From positions 1-37,641 of the forward strand of contig JAEEXG010000021.1 in assembly GCA_016291405.1 (NCBI GenBank): 37,641 nt of DNA, in the 5' to 3' direction. Shown piece by piece: positions 1,076 to 11,580 of this stretch. Below the pieces are notes generated by a model that was not told the DNA's origin, searched no databases, and saw only the letters and a list, made by a program, of their open reading frames with translations. Each line of letters begins with the position of its first letter. Position 1 is the first letter of the stretch. Source of the DNA: Lachnospiraceae bacterium. Lineage in GTDB: Bacteria > Bacillota > Clostridia > Lachnospirales > Lachnospiraceae. The translations under genes were made by a program, and so were the position numbers.

Positions 1076-3739
1076 ATGAAGAAAGAACTTGAAAAAACCT
1101 ACAATCCTCAGGGTATGGAGGATAGAATTTATCAGAACTGGTTGGATAAGAAGTATTTTCACGCTGAAGTAAACAGATCAAAGAAACCCTTCACCATCGT
1201 GATGCCTCCTCCGAATATCACAGGACAGCTTCACATGGGCCATGCCCTTGATAACACCATGCAGGATATCTTAACAAGATTTAAGAGAATGCAGGGCTTT
1301 GAGGCACTTTGGCAGCCCGGCACCGACCATGCGTCAATCGCGACTGAAGCAAAGGTTGTTGAGCAACTTAGAAAAGAAGGCATCGAAAAAGAAGATTTGG
1401 GCCGTGAAAAGTTCTTAGAGAGAGTATGGGACTGGAAGAAAGAATACGGCGGAAGAATCGTATCTCAGTTAAAGAAACTTGGTTCTTCATGCGACTGGGA
1501 CAGAGAACGCTTCACAATGGACGAAGGCTGCAACAAGGCAGTTACCGAAGTTTTCTGTAAGATGCATAAAAAAGGCTGGATTTACAAGGGCTCAAGAATC
1601 GTTAACTGGTGTCCCGTTTGCGGAACTTCCATTTCCGATGCGGAAGTTGAATACGAAGAACAGGCAGGCCATTTTTGGCACATTAAGTATCCTCTTGTAG
1701 ATGAAAACGGACAGCCTTCAAAGACAGAGTTTTTGGAGTTTGCAACCACACGTCCCGAAACAATGCTTGGCGATACCGCAGTTGCAGTTAACCCTAATGA
1801 TGAAAGATATACATATTTAAAGGGAAGAAAAGTATGGCTTCCTTTGGTAAATAAGGCTATTCCCGTAGTTGAAGATAATTACGTTGATATGGAATTCGGA
1901 ACAGGTGTAGTTAAGATTACTCCCGCTCACGACCCTAACGACTTTGAAGTTGGTAAGCGTCACAACTTGCCTGAAATCAACATCTTAAACGACGATGCAA
2001 CCATCAATTCAAACGGTGGAGAATATGAAGGTTTAGATAGATACGAAGCAAGAAAACGTATTGTTGAAGATCTTGATAAGTTAGGTTTGCTTGTTGAAAT
2101 CGAAGACTATTCACATAACGTAGGTACATGTTACCGTTGCGGCACAACAGTTGAACCTATGATTAAAAAGCAGTGGTTTGTAAAGATGGATGAGCTTATT
2201 AAGCCCGCCGTTAACGCTGTAAAGACAGGGGACATCAAGCTTGTTCCCGAATCAATGGACAAGACCTACTATAACTGGACAGACAACATTCGTGACTGGT
2301 GTATTTCAAGACAGCTTTGGTGGGGACACAGAATTCCTGCTTACTACTGTGAAGAATGCGGAGAAATAGTTGTTGCAAAATCAATGCCCGAAAAGTGCCC
2401 TAAGTGCGGATGCACTCACTTTAAGCAGGATGAAGATACACTTGATACATGGTTTTCTTCAGCTTTATGGCCTTTCTCAACCTTAGGATGGCCCGAACAG
2501 ACAGAAGACTTAAAATACTTCTATCCCACAGACGTACTTGTAACAGGTTACGACATCATTTTCTTCTGGGTTATCAGAATGATTTTCTCAGGATTTGAAA
2601 ATATGGGAGAGAGACCTTTCAAGGCAGTATTGTTCCACGGACTTGTTCGTGACTCACTTGGAAGAAAGATGAGTAAATCTTTAGGTAACGGTATCGATCC
2701 TTTGGAAATCATTGATAAGTACGGAGCAGATGCTTTGAGACTTACCCTTATTACAGGTAATGCACCCGGTAACGACATGCGTTTCTACAACGAACGTGTT
2801 GAAGCAAGCCGTAACTTTGCAAACAAGCTTTGGAACGCTTCAAGATTTATCATGATGAACATGCCTGACGGTGAAATCGCAGAGCCTTCAAAGGATGCTT
2901 TGGAAAGTGTTGATAAGTGGATTTTATCAAAGTGTAACTCTCTTATTAAAGAAGTTACCGACAACATGGAAAAGTACGAACTTGGTATTGCGGTTCAAAA
3001 GGTTTACGACTTTATCTGGGATGAATTCTGCGACTGGTACATTGAAATGGTTAAGCCCCGTCTTTACGCTGAGGGTAACAACGATTCAAAGAATGCCGCA
3101 TTGTGGACATTAAAGACGGTTTGTATCAATGCATTAAAGCTTCTTCATCCTTACATGCCTTTTGTTACAGAAGAAATCTTTACAACCATTCAGGATAAGG
3201 AAGAATCCATTATGATTTCTTCTTGGCCCGAATACTCTAAAGACTTTGCTTTTGAAAAAGAAGAAAAGGCTATTGAAACAATCAAAGAAGCCGTTCGTGC
3301 AATCAGAAACGTACGTACAAACATGAACGTTGCTCCTTCAAGAAAAGCTGAAGTTTTTGTTGTAAGTAACAAGGCAGATGTAAGAGAAATCTTTGAAAGT
3401 GCAAACGTTTACTTTAAGCCTTTGGCTTATGCATCAAACGTATCAGTCCAGGCTGACAACGCAGGTATTGCTGAAGACGCAGTTTCTTGTGTGATTTCAG
3501 GCGCAACAATTTACATGCCTTTTGCAGAGCTTGTTGATATCTCAGCCGAAATCGAGAGACTTACCAAGGAAGAAGCGAGACTTCAAGGCGAAATCAAGCG
3601 TTCAAACGGTATGCTTTCAAATGAAAAGTTCATTGCCAAGGCTCCCGAAGCTAAGGTAAATGAAGAAAAAGAAAAGTTAAAGAAGTACGAAGAAATGTTA
3701 AAAGAAGTAACCGAAAGACTTGCTTCATTAAAGAAATAA
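1076..3739 (+). CDS. valS: Valyl-tRNA synthetase
   Basis: Class I aminoacyl-tRNA synthetase that charges tRNA-Val in the cytosol. The 887-aa length is normal for the bacterial enzyme. The HIGH signature reads HMGH (residues 53-56, after PPPNITGQL) and the KMSKS loop is present at 531-535. The editing domain lies between them, and zinc-type CxxC pairs (CPVC near 180, CEEC and CPKC near 440-460) are visible. The C-terminal ~65 residues form the charged coiled-coil arm typical of ValS, rich in Glu and Lys. The ATG lies 9 nt after the pepF stop, with an AGGAGG ribosome binding site overlapping that stop. A strong intrinsic terminator follows the gene. No T-box is seen in front of it; if one exists it would be upstream of pepF, outside the window. 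Confidence 0.98.
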
Positions 3740-3752
3740 GCTGTATTTACAG

Positions 3753-3787
3753 GCCCTCCGAAGAGATTCGGAGGGCTTTTTCTTTTT
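3753..3787 (+). terminator. Intrinsic terminator after valS
   Basis: Perfect 10-bp stem (gccctccgaa / ttcggagggc) with a GAGA tetraloop, followed by TTTTTCTTTTT. It separates the pepF-valS unit from the GntR/ABC operon. Confidence 0.95.
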
Positions 3788-3791
3788 GCTG

Positions 3792-3820
3792 TTGACAGAA
3801 AGGAAAATCTACTGTACTAT
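3792..3820 (+). promoter_or_regulatory. SigA-type promoter of the ytrA-like operon
   Basis: Consensus -35 TTGACA (3792-3797), 17-bp spacer and -10 TACTAT (3815-3820). It starts directly behind the valS terminator and drives the GntR/ABC operon. The -10 box overlaps an ACTGTACTA half-site of the operator cluster. Confidence 0.9.
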
Positions 3821-3856
3821 AACTGTATGAACTGTACTAAGTGTGTTAGTACAGTT
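3811..3856 (+). promoter_or_regulatory. Palindromic operator, probably for the GntR/YtrA-type repressor
   Basis: Two 11-bp arms (aactgtactaa 3830-3840, ttagtacagtt 3846-3856) form a perfect inverted repeat with a 5-bp spacer, just downstream of the -10 box. Further half-sites ACTGTACTA (3811-3819) and ACTGTATGA (3822-3830) lie in direct orientation and overlap the -10. The position suits repression by the regulator encoded immediately downstream. Binding by that protein is inferred from known YtrA autoregulation. Confidence 0.75.
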
Positions 3857-3897
3857 AGAGAGGGAGATAGTGTTATTCATACAGAAAGGAGAGAGTC

Positions 3898-4251
3898 TTG
3901 ATTGAATTAAATTACAGAGACTCGCGTCCTATCTACGAGCAGATTAAAGATTGCATTAGAAAGCTGATAATATCAGGTGTGATGCCGCCGAACGAAAAGT
4001 TAGAGTCGGTAAGGAGCCTTGCAATCAAGCTTTCCATCAATCCGAATACGATTCAAAGGGCTTACAATGAGCTTGAAAATGAGGGATACGTTTACTCAAT
4101 CCCGGGAAAAGGAAGCTTTGTGTGCCCGGCCGTAAGACAGGATGAAGAGAAGATTGTTAATCTTAAGGCTAAACTAAAAGAAATTGCCGGTGAATTAAAA
4201 TTCATGGGCGTAAGCTATGAGGAGCTTGTTACTTTGATAAAGGGAGATTGA
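3898..4251 (+). CDS. GntR-family regulator, YtrA subfamily
   Basis: A 117-aa DNA-binding repressor. Residues ~5-75 form the GntR winged helix-turn-helix (YEQIKDCIRKLIISG, then the recognition segment INPNTIQRAYNELENEGY and the wing SIPGKGSFV). The short all-helical tail after residue 80, with no ligand domain, is what defines the YtrA type. The start is TTG, supported by AAAGGAGA 5-6 nt upstream. The first gene of the operon, it overlaps the region of the ABC ATPase start. YtrA-type proteins usually repress their own ABC-transporter operons and respond to cell-envelope stress or antibiotics. The inducer here is unknown. Confidence 0.92.
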   Translation: MIELNYRDSRPIYEQIKDCIRKLIISGVMPPNEKLESVRSLAIKLSINPNTIQRAYNELENEGYVYSIPGKGSFVCPAVRQDEEKIVNLKAKLKEIAGELKFMGVSYEELVTLIKGD

Positions 4252-9015: not shown

Positions 9016-9044
9016 AAAGGCGGGCAGTGAGCCCGCCTTTTTTT
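9016..9044 (+). terminator. Intrinsic terminator after the sortase/substrate pair
   Basis: Perfect 10-bp stem aaaggcgggc / gcccgccttt with an AGTGA loop; the T-tract is continuous from the right arm (TTTTTTT). The inverted-flank repeat starts right behind it at 9045. Confidence 0.95.
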
Positions 9045-9075
9045 GTGGGCTTTGGCGCTTTTGGTGGGCCAATAT
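9045..9075. repeat. Outer inverted flank, left copy
   Basis: These 31 bases are the reverse complement of 11510-11541 apart from one inserted base and one substitution. They comprise one copy of the 19-bp unit found in tandem on the right side (aaagcgccaaagccc when read on the minus strand) and the first TGGGCCAATA of palindrome A. Together with the right copy they bracket the nuclease/S66 gene pair like terminal inverted repeats. Confidence 0.8.
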
Positions 9076-9430
9076 GAGATTATTTGTAAATTGGGAGCAA
9101 ATTATAGACTAATTAGGGGCCCTTGGGGGCTCTCATGGGCCAATATGAAATCCATTGCAAATTAGGCGTAATTTTGGCTGTTTTGGACCTGATTTTGAAC
9201 TAATTTGGGCCAATACATAAAGCATACATAATTGGGAGTAGAAAATGCGATTTTCTACTCCCAAATCATCATGGATTCAATATTAGCCCAAATGATTCTA
9301 AAAAGTGCTCTGAAAGGGGCTAAATTACTCCCAAATCTTCATGGATTTCACATTGGCCCACCTGAGCCGGAACAGACCATAAATAACACCTAATTTGCTC
9401 CCAATTTTTAAATTATTACTTATTGGGACA
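9065..9430. repeat. Modular nested palindrome, copy A
   Basis: This 366-bp stretch is one long imperfect palindrome centred near 9248. TGGGCCAATA occurs at 9065, 9136 and 9206 in the left arm, a 70-71-bp period. Its complement occurs ending at 9290 (TATTAGCCCA), 9360 (CATTGGCCCA) and 9430 (TATTGGGACA) in the right arm, a 70-bp period. Each unit also holds an AAATCCAT-like block and a TTGGGAGTAATTT-like block in its first ~42 bases, then ~28 more variable bases. The centre is a strong hairpin (ttgggagtagaaaa / ttttctactcccaa, 9233-9263). The right end touches the stop codon of the nuclease gene at 9431, so the nuclease transcript would run into this structure. No open reading frame of note lies here. 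Confidence 0.9.
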
Positions 9431-10210
9431 CTAATCCATCAACCATTCTTCAATCTCATCTATGATTCTATCAATAGTCATCATATTAATGGGCTTATCG
9501 GCTGTTTCAAAAGTGAAGATCAATTCTCTGCCCGGAAGCAAACCGTTTGAATAGTATAAGTCTTCCTTTTCCAAAGCCTTCTTTCTATATTTAGGATCAT
9601 CCATCATTCCATAATGCTCCCAATACTTGTATTCACCTGTCCTCTCTTTGTAAAAGGTAAAGTCGGGGTAAGAAGTTTGACCTCCAATAATAGCTTTGCA
9701 TTCATATCGGAAAGGGATTTTTCGATGAAATAATTCCATATCGATAAGGCACTCCGATTTTGAACGGAGGATGTGCCCTGAGGGGCTTGGGAATTTAAGA
9801 TTATCTAAAAATGTGGGATTTTGATCAAATGGTTGGTCTTGCCATTTTTGCACGTCTTCGTTGTTTGCTTTGATAAGTAATTCCTCGAATCTTTTTTGCG
9901 TGGTGGCGCTTTTAATCCAGGCGTCCTCACTCGGACAGTGCTTTAAATAAAGGTCAATGGCAGCTTTTTCTTTTTCCATAAGTATTATGCGTTCGGTTTC
10001 AATTCGTTTTTTCGCAAGGGCCGACGCAAGTTTGATTTCACTTTTGGGAAGATAGTTTCTTTCACCGTCATCAGGTTTTACAAACCATTTTGTAGCGTTA
10101 CGATTATAAGAAATCTCCAGTTTTCCGGGAGGAGCTGATTTGATGGTTTTACGGCACTTTTCAATCTCAGCACAAAGAAAAGCTCGCCGTTTAAGAATTG
10201 AGTCGTACAT
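9431..10210 (-). CDS. PD-(D/E)XK-like nuclease of unknown role
   Basis: A 259-aa cytosolic protein without signal or membrane segments. The N-terminal ~110 residues are helical and charged. The C-terminal half carries a restriction-endonuclease-like core: RSKSE with Glu153, an FRYE beta strand (Glu170), YPDFTF with Asp183, and YWEHYG with Glu198/His199. The usual lysine of the (D/E)XK pair is replaced (EHY), a variant common in clostridial hypothetical proteins with the SKSE-PDFT-WEH pattern. The ATG at 10210 has AAGGAG upstream, and a strong promoter lies at 10305-10277. The stop codon abuts the end of palindrome A. It could serve in defence, DNA repair or mobility of the surrounding repeats; none of these is shown. 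Nuclease fold: fairly sure. Biological role: unknown. Confidence 0.75.
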   Translation of the reverse strand: MYDSILKRRAFLCAEIEKCRKTIKSAPPGKLEISYNRNATKWFVKPDDGERNYLPKSEIKLASALAKKRIETERIILMEKEKAAIDLYLKHCPSEDAWIKSATTQKRFEELLIKANNEDVQKWQDQPFDQNPTFLDNLKFPSPSGHILRSKSECLIDMELFHRKIPFRYECKAIIGGQTSYPDFTFYKERTGEYKYWEHYGMMDDPKYRKKALEKEDLYYSNGLLPGRELIFTFETADKPINMMTIDRIIDEIEEWLMD

Positions 10211-10276
10211 ATTTCTCCTTATTAAATTGATTTTAATGAAAACGGAAATCAGATTTTGACTTCCGAGGATAAAGAA

Positions 10277-10305
10277 AATATATGATAATCCAATCCGAGT
10301 GTCAA
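10277..10305 (-). promoter_or_regulatory. SigA-type promoter of the nuclease gene
   Basis: On the minus strand: TTGACA (10305-10300), 17-bp spacer, TATATT (10282-10277). A near-consensus promoter, giving a leader of roughly 60 nt before the ATG at 10210. Confidence 0.85.
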
Positions 10306-10316
10306 GCGATAAATTC

Positions 10317-10345
10317 TTCGAAAACTGATGGATATCGAGTATAAT
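10317..10345 (+). promoter_or_regulatory. Probable promoter of the S66 peptidase gene
   Basis: Perfect -10 TATAAT (10340-10345) with a weak -35 TTCGAA (10317-10322) at 17 bp. It points away from the nuclease promoter, whose -35 box lies 11 bp away. Confidence 0.6.
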
Positions 10346-10411
10346 GGGATTGTCGATTTAAAATGATTTCAAAGCCATGTGAGAAATGGTGATTGAATTT
10401 GGAGGTATTCT

Positions 10412-11245
10412 ATGAAGGCAGGTATAAGTGCATGCTCCAACGGACATATGAAAGAATGGAAAAATCAGGTTGATGAGCTTGTTGAAACTTTAAATAAAAT
10501 GGGGATTGAGCCGATTCTTTCGCCCCACATATATGCAACCATCGACGAATTCAGTGCTTCCGACAAAGAACGCGCCGAGGACTTGATGCGCTTTTATTTA
10601 GATAAAGATATCACCAATATATTTGACATTTCAGGCGGCGATCTGGCTAACGGTGTTTTAAAGTATCTTGATTTTGATGTGATAAAAGAAACCGGTAAGA
10701 CTTTCTGGGGATATTCAGATCTAACCACCATTATAAATGCCATCTATTCAATGACAGGAAAGTCCTCCGTTCTTTATCAAATAAAGAACATGGTTTGGAA
10801 TTGTAAAGATATTCAACAGAAAAGATTCTTTGATTACATAGGCGGAAAAAACAATGACTTATTTGATTTAAAATACGATTTCTTGCAGGGAAAATCCATG
10901 GAAGGAATTGTTGTAGGCGGAAACATTCGCTGTTTTTCTAAACTTGCAGGCACAAAATACTGGCCTGATATGACGGGTAAAATCCTTCTTTTAGAATCAC
11001 TTGGAGGAGAGAGCGGTCAGATTGCTACACTTCTAAATCAGCTTGATGACATAGGTGTGTTTAAGCAGATTTCCGGCGTTTTACTTGGAACATTCACAAA
11101 TTATGAAAAAGCAGGCCTTGAACTTACTGTTTATGACTTACTTAAAATGCACATTTCTGATGATATGCCCGTAGCTTGTACAAAAGAAATCGGTCACGGA
11201 AATGATTCTAAAGCAATAAAGATTGGGGCTTATCAAGCTTTTTAG
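10412..11245 (+). CDS. S66-family serine peptidase (LD-carboxypeptidase / MccF-like)
   Basis: A 277-aa cytosolic enzyme of peptidase family S66. The family includes LD-carboxypeptidases that trim the muropeptide tetrapeptide during wall recycling, and MccF, which cleaves the toxic nucleotide-peptide microcin C. The Ser-Glu-His triad is visible: Ser102 in WGYSDLT, Glu195 in LLLESLGG and His262 in IGHGND. Other family blocks are FDISGGDLAN and GVLLGTF. It is slightly shorter than the usual ~300 aa. The ATG has GGAGG 7 nt upstream. Transcribed divergently from the nuclease gene, it runs into palindrome B. Sequence alone does not separate wall recycling from immunity; the accessory setting makes an MccF-like role possible. 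Confidence 0.85.
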   Translation: MKAGISACSNGHMKEWKNQVDELVETLNKMGIEPILSPHIYATIDEFSASDKERAEDLMRFYLDKDITNIFDISGGDLANGVLKYLDFDVIKETGKTFWGYSDLTTIINAIYSMTGKSSVLYQIKNMVWNCKDIQQKRFFDYIGGKNNDLFDLKYDFLQGKSMEGIVVGGNIRCFSKLAGTKYWPDMTGKILLLESLGGESGQIATLLNQLDDIGVFKQISGVLLGTFTNYEKAGLELTVYDLLKMHISDDMPVACTKEIGHGNDSKAIKIGAYQAF

Positions 11246-11294
11246 TGTAATAAGAATTGATGGGGTGACTTTTAAGGTATTTCAAAGAGCCGGT

Positions 11295-11520
11295 TGGGCC
11301 AATACGAAATCCATAGTAAATTGGGCGTAATTTTTGGCTGTTTTGGACCTGATTTTGGGCTAATGTGGGCCAATACATAAAGCATAAAAAATTGGGAGTA
11401 GAAAACGCGGTTTTCTACTCCCAATTCTTCGCGGATTTGATATTAGCCCAAACGATTCTAAAATGAGCCCTGAAAGGGGCTAAATTACTCCCAAATCTTC
11501 ATGGATTTTATATTGGCCCA
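11295..11520. repeat. Modular nested palindrome, copy B
   Basis: A 226-bp copy of the inner four units of palindrome A (9136-9360), in the same orientation and identical at roughly nine in ten positions by eye. TGGGCCAATA lies at 11295 and 11366; the complements end at 11450 (TATTAGCCCA) and 11520 (TATTGGCCCA). The centre is near 11408 with the same hairpin (ttgggagtagaaaa / ttttctactcccaa, loop region cgcgg). Several differences between the copies keep the arms paired: the central loop-proximal bases are atgcgat in A and acgcggt in B. It begins 49 nt after the S66 gene stop. The outermost units found in copy A are missing here. Confidence 0.9.
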
Positions 11521-11541
11521 CCAAAAAGCGCCAGAGCCCAC
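11510..11541. repeat. Outer inverted flank, right copy
   Basis: Reverse complement of 9045-9075 with one extra base and one substitution. It spans the last unit of palindrome B and the first 19-bp tandem unit. Confidence 0.8.
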
Positions 11542-11580
11542 GAAAAGCGCCAGAGCCCACGAAAAGCCCCAGAGCCCGCA
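11524..11580. repeat. Three tandem 19-bp repeats
   Basis: Units at 11524-11542 and 11543-11561 are identical (aaaagcgccagagcccacg). The third (11562-11580) has three changes. A degenerate continuation (aaaaggcctc) follows. One inverted copy of the unit lies at 9045-9062. Confidence 0.85.

Follow-up and report, generated by a model that had tools for sequence, protein, structure and literature searches.

A stretch of 37,641 nucleotides from a Lachnospiraceae bacterium (assembly GCA_016291405.1, contig JAEEXG010000021.1), hereafter the window, contains two palindromic arrays of short repeated units, array A (9065-9430) and array B (11295-11520). Array A abuts the stop codon of a gene (9431-10210, minus strand) for a 259-aa protein that is probably a PD-(D/E)XK-like nuclease. 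The association between this nuclease family, which occurs in Lachnospiraceae of gut and rumen, and such palindromes is real, widespread and, as far as searched, undescribed. It is best read as a family of PD-(D/E)XK-like nucleases with private palindromic sites, which would behave in the manner of REPINs, the doublets of repetitive extragenic palindromic (REP) sequences, and their RAYT proteins, although the protein itself is an unrelated one.

Association of the nuclease genes with palindromic arrays

Within the genus (18 genomes, window included), all six close nuclease genes, taken at an identity of at least 52%, are followed by an array at 0-52 nt from the stop codon. They are those of the window, G000:C9, G015:C52, G007:C8, G007:C7 and G006:C6. 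The array at G000:C9 (15.6 kb) is too degenerate for the covariance model R1 described below, and five of the 56 modelled arrays adjoin a close nuclease. A more distant homologue in G005 (48% identity) has the window-type unit as a 73-bp tandem array, which lies 5' of the gene.

The same link is found at larger distances. A scan of an 84,980-species collection yielded 511 relatives, 80 of which serve as the family-wide loci. At least two units sharing an exact 7-bp box within 600 nt occur at 33 of these 80 loci and in none of 537 control windows, and an 8-mer present at least four times within 450 nt was found at 49 of the 80, compared with 8 of 341 control pairs. When remote paralogues are added and the distance is extended to 800 nt, 56 of 114 loci have at least two same-box units, whereas none of 348 windows does; of 121 other genes in these stretches, with flanks tested likewise, one is positive. 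This sole positive control, in G005, consists of seven TATCCCA units, the box of that stretch's own nuclease. The 114 loci, which are related by descent, form 112 groups at 97% identity, 56 of them positive. Loci L264, L277, L279, L281 and L284 were omitted as repeats, and L269-L276 because they lie outside the family and match by the domain only. At the 56 positive loci, the array lies only 5' of the gene in 28 cases, only 3' in 25 and on both sides in three. Among the remote paralogues, examined on both sides of the gene, 15 of 24 have at least two units, and the arrays can be made out in the sequence; eight further loci of both groups were dropped, the script having detected no open reading frame (ORF). 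An earlier note on the window, made from its letters alone, had proposed a nuclease-associated palindrome family with a protein unrelated to RAYTs. The counts at the six close genes, at the 114 loci and in the gene-flank controls strongly support this proposal, as do the dispersed arrays described below, which are in part polymorphic for presence and absence, and the link of copies to nuclease homologues proves wider than was then suggested.

Three points tell against so general an association. At 58 of the 114 loci, at least two exact units are lacking, although some of these loci have single or degenerate units. The mechanical unit test could also count other tandem repeats. Finally, G012 holds five arrays and no close nuclease was found in this genome, which is 89% complete.

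Other repeats and placements were seen in passing. The seven-unit TATCCCA array of G005 (L142) lies upstream of an ORF at 3082-4015, about 2 kb from the nuclease. The remote paralogue L122 (G000:C99) has a different repeat upstream, made of variants of TTTTTATCAGTATG, and L139 has ten copies of a 22-bp tandem repeat (AACAAGAT...GGAAAG) 5' of its nuclease.

Unit architecture and copy number

A weight-matrix scan of all copies defines a unit of 35 bp, in which a box of 8-10 bp is followed by about 15 bp and the inverted box. In the relatives, the unit is plainly an inverted repeat, TATCCCAATA-N15-TATTGGGATA. It is one in most copies, the symmetry being obscured in the window by a TGGGCC variant. 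Within an arm, the distance from one unit to the next is mostly 70-72 bp, and the two arms are mirror images on either side of a centre, which measures 25 bp in one array and 15-17 bp in the others. Array A has three units (9065-9099, 9136-9170 and 9206-9240), a 15-bp centre (9241-9255) and three inverted units (9256-9290, 9326-9360 and 9396-9430). Array B has two units (11295-11329 and 11366-11400), a 15-bp centre (11401-11415) and two inverted units (11416-11450 and 11486-11520). These coordinates bear out the extents, the number of units per arm and the 70-71-bp period given in the earlier note, and its symmetry points, 9248 and 11408, are correct. Array B aligns over 228 nt with the inner two plus two units of A at 89% identity, and the homology stops within 2 nt of the ends of B.

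Blast revealed array copies on four further contigs. The central 85-nt module (unit, centre, inverted unit; 9206-9290 in A and 11366-11450 in B) was modelled as R1, a covariance model trained on G000 and G012 copies. With R1, 15 arrays were detected in the window genome, five in G012 and 12 in each of G006, G007 and G015. The earlier note had suggested looking for copies elsewhere, and five genomes of the genus have 5-15 arrays each. At E <= 0.01, R1 detects no array in the other 13 genomes of the genus, with at most 150 candidates scored per genome in the genus scan and 15 in the family sample. With stricter filters, the window genome is the sole match among the 299 genomes of the family sample. 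R1 is blind to tandem arrays such as that of G005. ORFs overlapping whole arrays reach at most 121 aa (19 of 56 arrays). Arrays flanked on both sides by ORFs of at least 100 aa lie between 17 convergent, 26 tandem and 8 divergent gene pairs. G006, G007 and G015 also have a dispersed repeat unrelated to the arrays, about 53 bp long (GGCCGCTAC...GAAGCGGGAGAGGG) and matched about 30 times in the three genomes together; it sometimes lies beside arrays.

DNA sites or RNA structure

At fixed loci, the boxes are constrained. In 13 orthologous array pairs (one array used twice), 28 of 1060 box sites have changed (2.6%), compared with 144 of 794 in unit interiors, 289 of 1158 in spacers (25%) and 668 of 3011 in flanks. 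These figures come from arrays that the model can find, and arrays too decayed are missed, which weakens the case for constraint; the counts per pair are so low (0-4 of 60-100) that they are unlike the truncation of a 25% rate.

The arms of the arrays were compared for pairing in the 40 of 56 arrays in which all four units were detected. Complementarity of the spacers between the arms is 0.343, compared with 0.373 when the arms are taken from different arrays of one genome, and G-U does not exceed A-C (29 G-U and 36 A-C in boxes, 182 and 199 elsewhere). Box match is slightly higher within an array (0.78-0.95) than between arrays (0.71-0.89), for example 0.945 vs 0.891. At the array centres, 127 of 287 are self-complementary, compared with 0.21 for shuffles (40 arrays).

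These results bear on the alternative, also considered in the earlier note, that the arrays form a structured RNA, whose giant hairpin would terminate the transcripts on both sides or regulate them. Both window arrays have strong predicted folds (z -8.6 for A and -4.8 for B), and none of 100 shuffles was equally stable in either case. Several arrays appear, by eye, to lie just past terminator-like hairpins. Base changes that preserve pairs in the central hairpin, pointed out in the earlier note, are real and recurrent, with AAAA/TTTT replaced by TTTT/AAAA in two of 12 copies, and the slightly better box match within arrays points in the same direction. Folding beyond chance thus holds for A and B; the term giant hairpin is overstated, because pairing between the arms, once the boxes are set aside, does not exceed that between arms taken from different arrays of the same genome. 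Spacer complementarity at the control level, the lack of any preference for G-U over A-C, the absence of an Rfam match at gathering score in the window between 8800 and 12000, and the existence of tandem direct arrays (G005) all stand against control of both transcripts by a structured RNA, which is therefore most improbable. An RNA hairpin or terminator was rejected on the first two of these grounds. Since the spacers are unpaired and G-U is not favoured, the arrays are better taken for DNA sites, and it is fairly probable that they are sequence-specific sites of the neighbouring nuclease.

The nuclease family

The window protein has no match in Pfam, PHROGs or NCBIfam. Among 68 family members, weak matches to six Pfam families occur at E <= 0.01, each in one or two members, and none of the six is a nuclease or transposase family. 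In the member alignment A3, which comprises the window, L115 and 66 of the 80 loci, E153, P182-D183 and E198 are invariant and fit a PD-(D/E)XK motif. Of the 14 loci outside A3, two have a stop, and the other 12 are near-duplicates, contig-edge or shorter matches that were removed by hand. The PADLOC model PDC-S68 matches the C-terminal domain of the nuclease with an E value of 8e-28, and HEAT_CxxC_PDDEXK, another PADLOC model, matches at 0.0086. The protein is a probable PD-(D/E)XK-like nuclease. It counts against this assignment that it would lean on the motif and the PADLOC models, Foldseek having returned nothing at E <= 0.001 and, as its best restriction-like match, 3ijm at only 0.16.

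The AlphaFold model has a mean pLDDT (predicted local distance difference test) of 94 and a pTM (predicted template modelling score) of 0.58. Its layout comprises a helix (2-25), three strands (30-54), a long helix (56-91) and a nuclease core from about residue 149. The N-terminal sheet domain may resemble AP2 or integrase arm-binding domains. The two G007 paralogues are under purifying selection, with a ratio of nonsynonymous to synonymous divergence (dN/dS) of 0.08, taken at a dS of 1.8, which is near saturation.

Of the 299 genomes sampled from the window's family at almost one per genus, 99 have a match to the nuclease profile, and these represent 98 of 298 genera. In a sample of the phylum, 13 of 398 match; eight of these are outside the family and match by the nuclease domain only, five of them in ORFs longer than 600 aa. 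A genome may hold several distinct genes, with five matches in G000 and nine in G007. Plasmid and phage collections gave four and two records, respectively, all of them partial matches of less than 60% identity, and a single-protein query of viral_contigs returned no relative. L176, L214 and a few profile matches have an in-frame stop within the matched range and may be decayed genes.

Box diversity and a change of box in G007

The boxes differ between subfamilies. Among them are TATCCCAATA, TATCGCAATA, TAGTCCAATA, TTGGGTGTA, GGGCATA, TTGACTAA, AGGTGTG and ACACGTA. Dispersal of a box found beside a nuclease occurs a second time in G316, a metagenome-assembled genome (MAG) labelled Agathobacter. 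It has 24 exact units of TTGGGTGTA, the box beside its nuclease, on eight contigs, and the nuclease gene is present in one of the eight fetched array stretches. No exact TTGGGTGTA unit was found in eight other genomes, and the reversed control gave 0. Two points qualify this dispersal. The eight contigs of G316 may represent fewer loci, since several arrays are located at contig ends, and in KH1T2 the exact units are found only beside the nuclease gene (four local units), so not all members show dispersal.

In G007, both nuclease-side arrays and eight of the 12 arrays carry TATCGCAATA, the CGC-type box. An orthologue in G006 or G015 was detected for five of these eight, and at four of the five loci (C8a, C7, C18 and C11 of G007) the orthologous array carries the CCC-type box TATCCCAATA. 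The box has thus changed in the nuclease-side arrays of G007 and in most of its other arrays. In strand 2 of the N-terminal sheet, both G007 nucleases have RFY, and those of G006, G015 and the window have KWF. Three nucleases with RWR (L139-L141) have GTCC boxes, as read by eye. One G007 nuclease has an N-terminus that matches its locus and a remainder that matches its paralogue, a pattern as from gene conversion. A simple switch in step with the protein is opposed by the fifth locus, where G7_C14 and its orthologue G6_C11 are both of the CGC type, by one CGC array each in G015 and G006, which are without an RFY nuclease, and by four G007 arrays that are still CCC. The cases of box switch are also few and related.

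Mobility of the arrays

Arrays of one genome were compared as paralogous pairs, taken at 200 nt or more and at least 72% identity (41 pairs). In 24 of them, homology extends no more than 10 nt beyond either array. Arrays A and B of the window (89%, 228 bp) and the pair G7_C19/G7_C8b (86%, 226 bp) belong to this group.

Presence and absence of the array was followed for seven arrays, six of them without a detected partner and one, G15_C51b, with a partner in G006 only. The array G7_C19 is absent in G015 and in G006, both of which have an identical junction. This case is best read as the gain of about 350 bp, array included, in G007, because protein identities place G007 closest to G015. For G7_C8b, G7_C22b and G6_C49, there are relatives without the array, compatible with gain or loss. 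The flanks of G15_C37 lie on different contigs, which makes it uninformative. At G15_C51c, the array is present without a nuclease, where G006 and G007 have both. Sequence shared between copies largely ends with the array, and some sites are empty, which makes the array a probable mobile element.

Several findings weigh against mobility. In the other 17 pairs, homology continues for longer beyond an array, over 11-43 nt in 13 pairs and 80-250 nt in four, and two of the four longest cases are G0_C74/G0_C9, where the whole stretch is duplicated, and G7_C7/G7_C8a, where the homology takes in the nuclease. No target-site duplication was seen at the empty site of G7_C19 or elsewhere in the examined absences. 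Some absences are losses: in G007, a single hybrid unit is left of the G15_C51b array and the G15_C6b array has disappeared; in G006, the latter looks decayed.

The hybrid unit in G007 (L249, C4:19800-20150), aligned with its counterpart in G015 (C51, L262), joins the left half of unit 1 to the right half of unit 4. This collapse is evidently a recent deletion with both ends within unit interiors and nearly identical flanks.

Some of these observations would suit a narrower explanation, in which the arrays are only operators or decoys. A defence- or toxin-type nuclease would then be checked by the arrays adjoining its gene, and dispersal would be ordinary duplication in which the nuclease has no part. 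The operator position, 5' of the gene, is as frequent as the 3' position (28 vs 25, with three on both sides), the phage-defence candidate PDC-S68 of PADLOC has the same nuclease domain, the exact units of KH1T2 are local, and G0_C74/G0_C9 is a plain whole-stretch duplication. Taken alone, this explanation accounts neither for the 5-15 array loci per genome, with boxes conserved far from the gene, nor for the joint change of dispersed and nuclease-side arrays in G007, and it is unlikely.

A second motif in the arrays

The arrays contain a second, fixed motif, GTTATGTNAAC. With one mismatch allowed, 41 of the 56 arrays contain it, giving 62 occurrences in about 17.8 kb of array sequence compared with 27 in about 394 kb elsewhere, the window having been scanned twice in this count. 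It is mostly located at fixed offsets beside inner units (for example, offset 56 in L069 and 160 in L073), and the arrays bearing it belong to G000, G006, G007, G012 and G015. It was also seen near the boxes of some distant members (L179, L192 and L205). Outside the genus, it is about twofold enriched near the nuclease, with 10 occurrences in 86 kb vs 16 in 305 kb. We take it to resemble the XerD half of the Firmicutes dif site. No dif site was recognised in the genus.

The concentration of GTTATGTNAAC in the arrays and its fixed offsets would fit sites of chromosome organisation, with a role at the replication terminus or in segregation. Such a role is very unlikely given that no dif was recognised in the genus, that the enrichment outside it is only about twofold, and that the boxes differ between subfamilies.

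Neighbours of arrays A and B

As the earlier note had stated, array A ends at 9430, directly beside the nuclease ORF, and array B starts 49 nt past the stop of the gene between the two arrays, an S66 LD-carboxypeptidase gene (10412-11245, plus strand; Pfam PF02016/PF17676). The note had treated the nuclease and the S66 gene as a pair bracketed by the arrays. This pairing did not recur, as no S66 match was found among the two nearest ORFs on each side of any array outside the window, and the S66 gene therefore looks incidental to the arrays.

Outside the arrays, the nuclease-S66 segment is enclosed by an inverted repeat, GTGGGCTTTGGCGCTTTT and its complement (about 90% complementary), at 9041-9069 and 11524-11567. 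The right-hand copy (11524-11567) is a 19-bp tandem repeat of about three copies.

Comparison with known systems

REPINs are described as inverted doublets whose spacers are less conserved, located near and co-evolving with single-copy, distinctive RAYTs (PMC3116915). The present arrays likewise are inverted short boxes, extragenic and dispersed, with spacers less conserved than boxes, and a distinctive cognate gene bears matching boxes in its immediate vicinity, as is described for RAYTs in the same source. REPs are recognised by HUH enzymes and carry a GTAG-type tetranucleotide (PMC8266576), whereas the nuclease has no HUH/Y1 match and no transposase family is among the matches of the 68 members at E <= 0.01. 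The units also differ in being spaced pairs of half-sites in mirrored two-plus-two or tandem arrays, and the 5-15 arrays per genome contrast with the more than 100 REPs that are usual (PMC2817692).

Rpn proteins (YhgA-like, PF04754) are PD-(D/E)XK nucleases of low sequence specificity that promote recombination (PMC5350276). They resemble the present family in its probable nuclease type, theirs being linked to recombination; unlike them, the family has no match to the Transposase_31 Pfam model (PF04754). The PADLOC defence candidates PDC-S68 and PDC-S69 have the nuclease domain in common with it. The PDC-S68 models span 1202-1273 positions, only the C-terminal part of which aligns to the window-type nuclease, and of PDC-S69 (289 positions) only a part aligns.

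Miniature inverted-repeat transposable elements (MITEs) are short elements with no gene of their own, with inverted ends and with a transposase acting in trans. The arrays are similarly short, without a gene and with inverted ends. They differ from MITEs in that neither a transposase of a known family nor a clean target duplication was seen and in that their internal, repeated half-sites are conserved. A literature search, with most subscription papers outside its scope, returned work on REP/RAYT and Rpn and no account of the nuclease-palindrome association.

Interpretation

A scheme for how nuclease and arrays may work together can be proposed. The 35-bp unit, with its two inverted half-sites of 8-10 bp, would most simply be read by a protein dimer. 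Each half-site may be read by the N-terminal sheet domain, and the C-terminal nuclease domain would then act on or near the unit. Binding, cleavage, dimerisation and a causal part of the nuclease in the spread of the arrays are what we infer from sequence. In the window's clade, the arrays would be elements of about 226 bp that stay matched to a protein encoded elsewhere, in the way that REPINs follow their RAYTs. Same-box arrays also lie at other loci in this clade and, separately, in the Agathobacter MAG.

An evolvable N-terminal DNA-reading domain may give the subfamilies their private codes; several nuclease-array pairs could share one chromosome, and a change of code would be followed by the rewriting or replacement of dispersed arrays. 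This is put forward tentatively, as a possibility that the orthologous loci of G007 suggest.

To our knowledge, dispersed bacterial palindromes in step with a cognate protein are otherwise found only with HUH transposases, the RAYTs. The RAYT-like pattern is here shown by an unrelated and unannotated nuclease family. Because boxes differ between its members and change at orthologous loci, the family may offer a natural series for decoding a code of protein-DNA recognition. The system would also be suited to asking what maintains such pairs, be it selfish spread, addiction or a benefit to the host.

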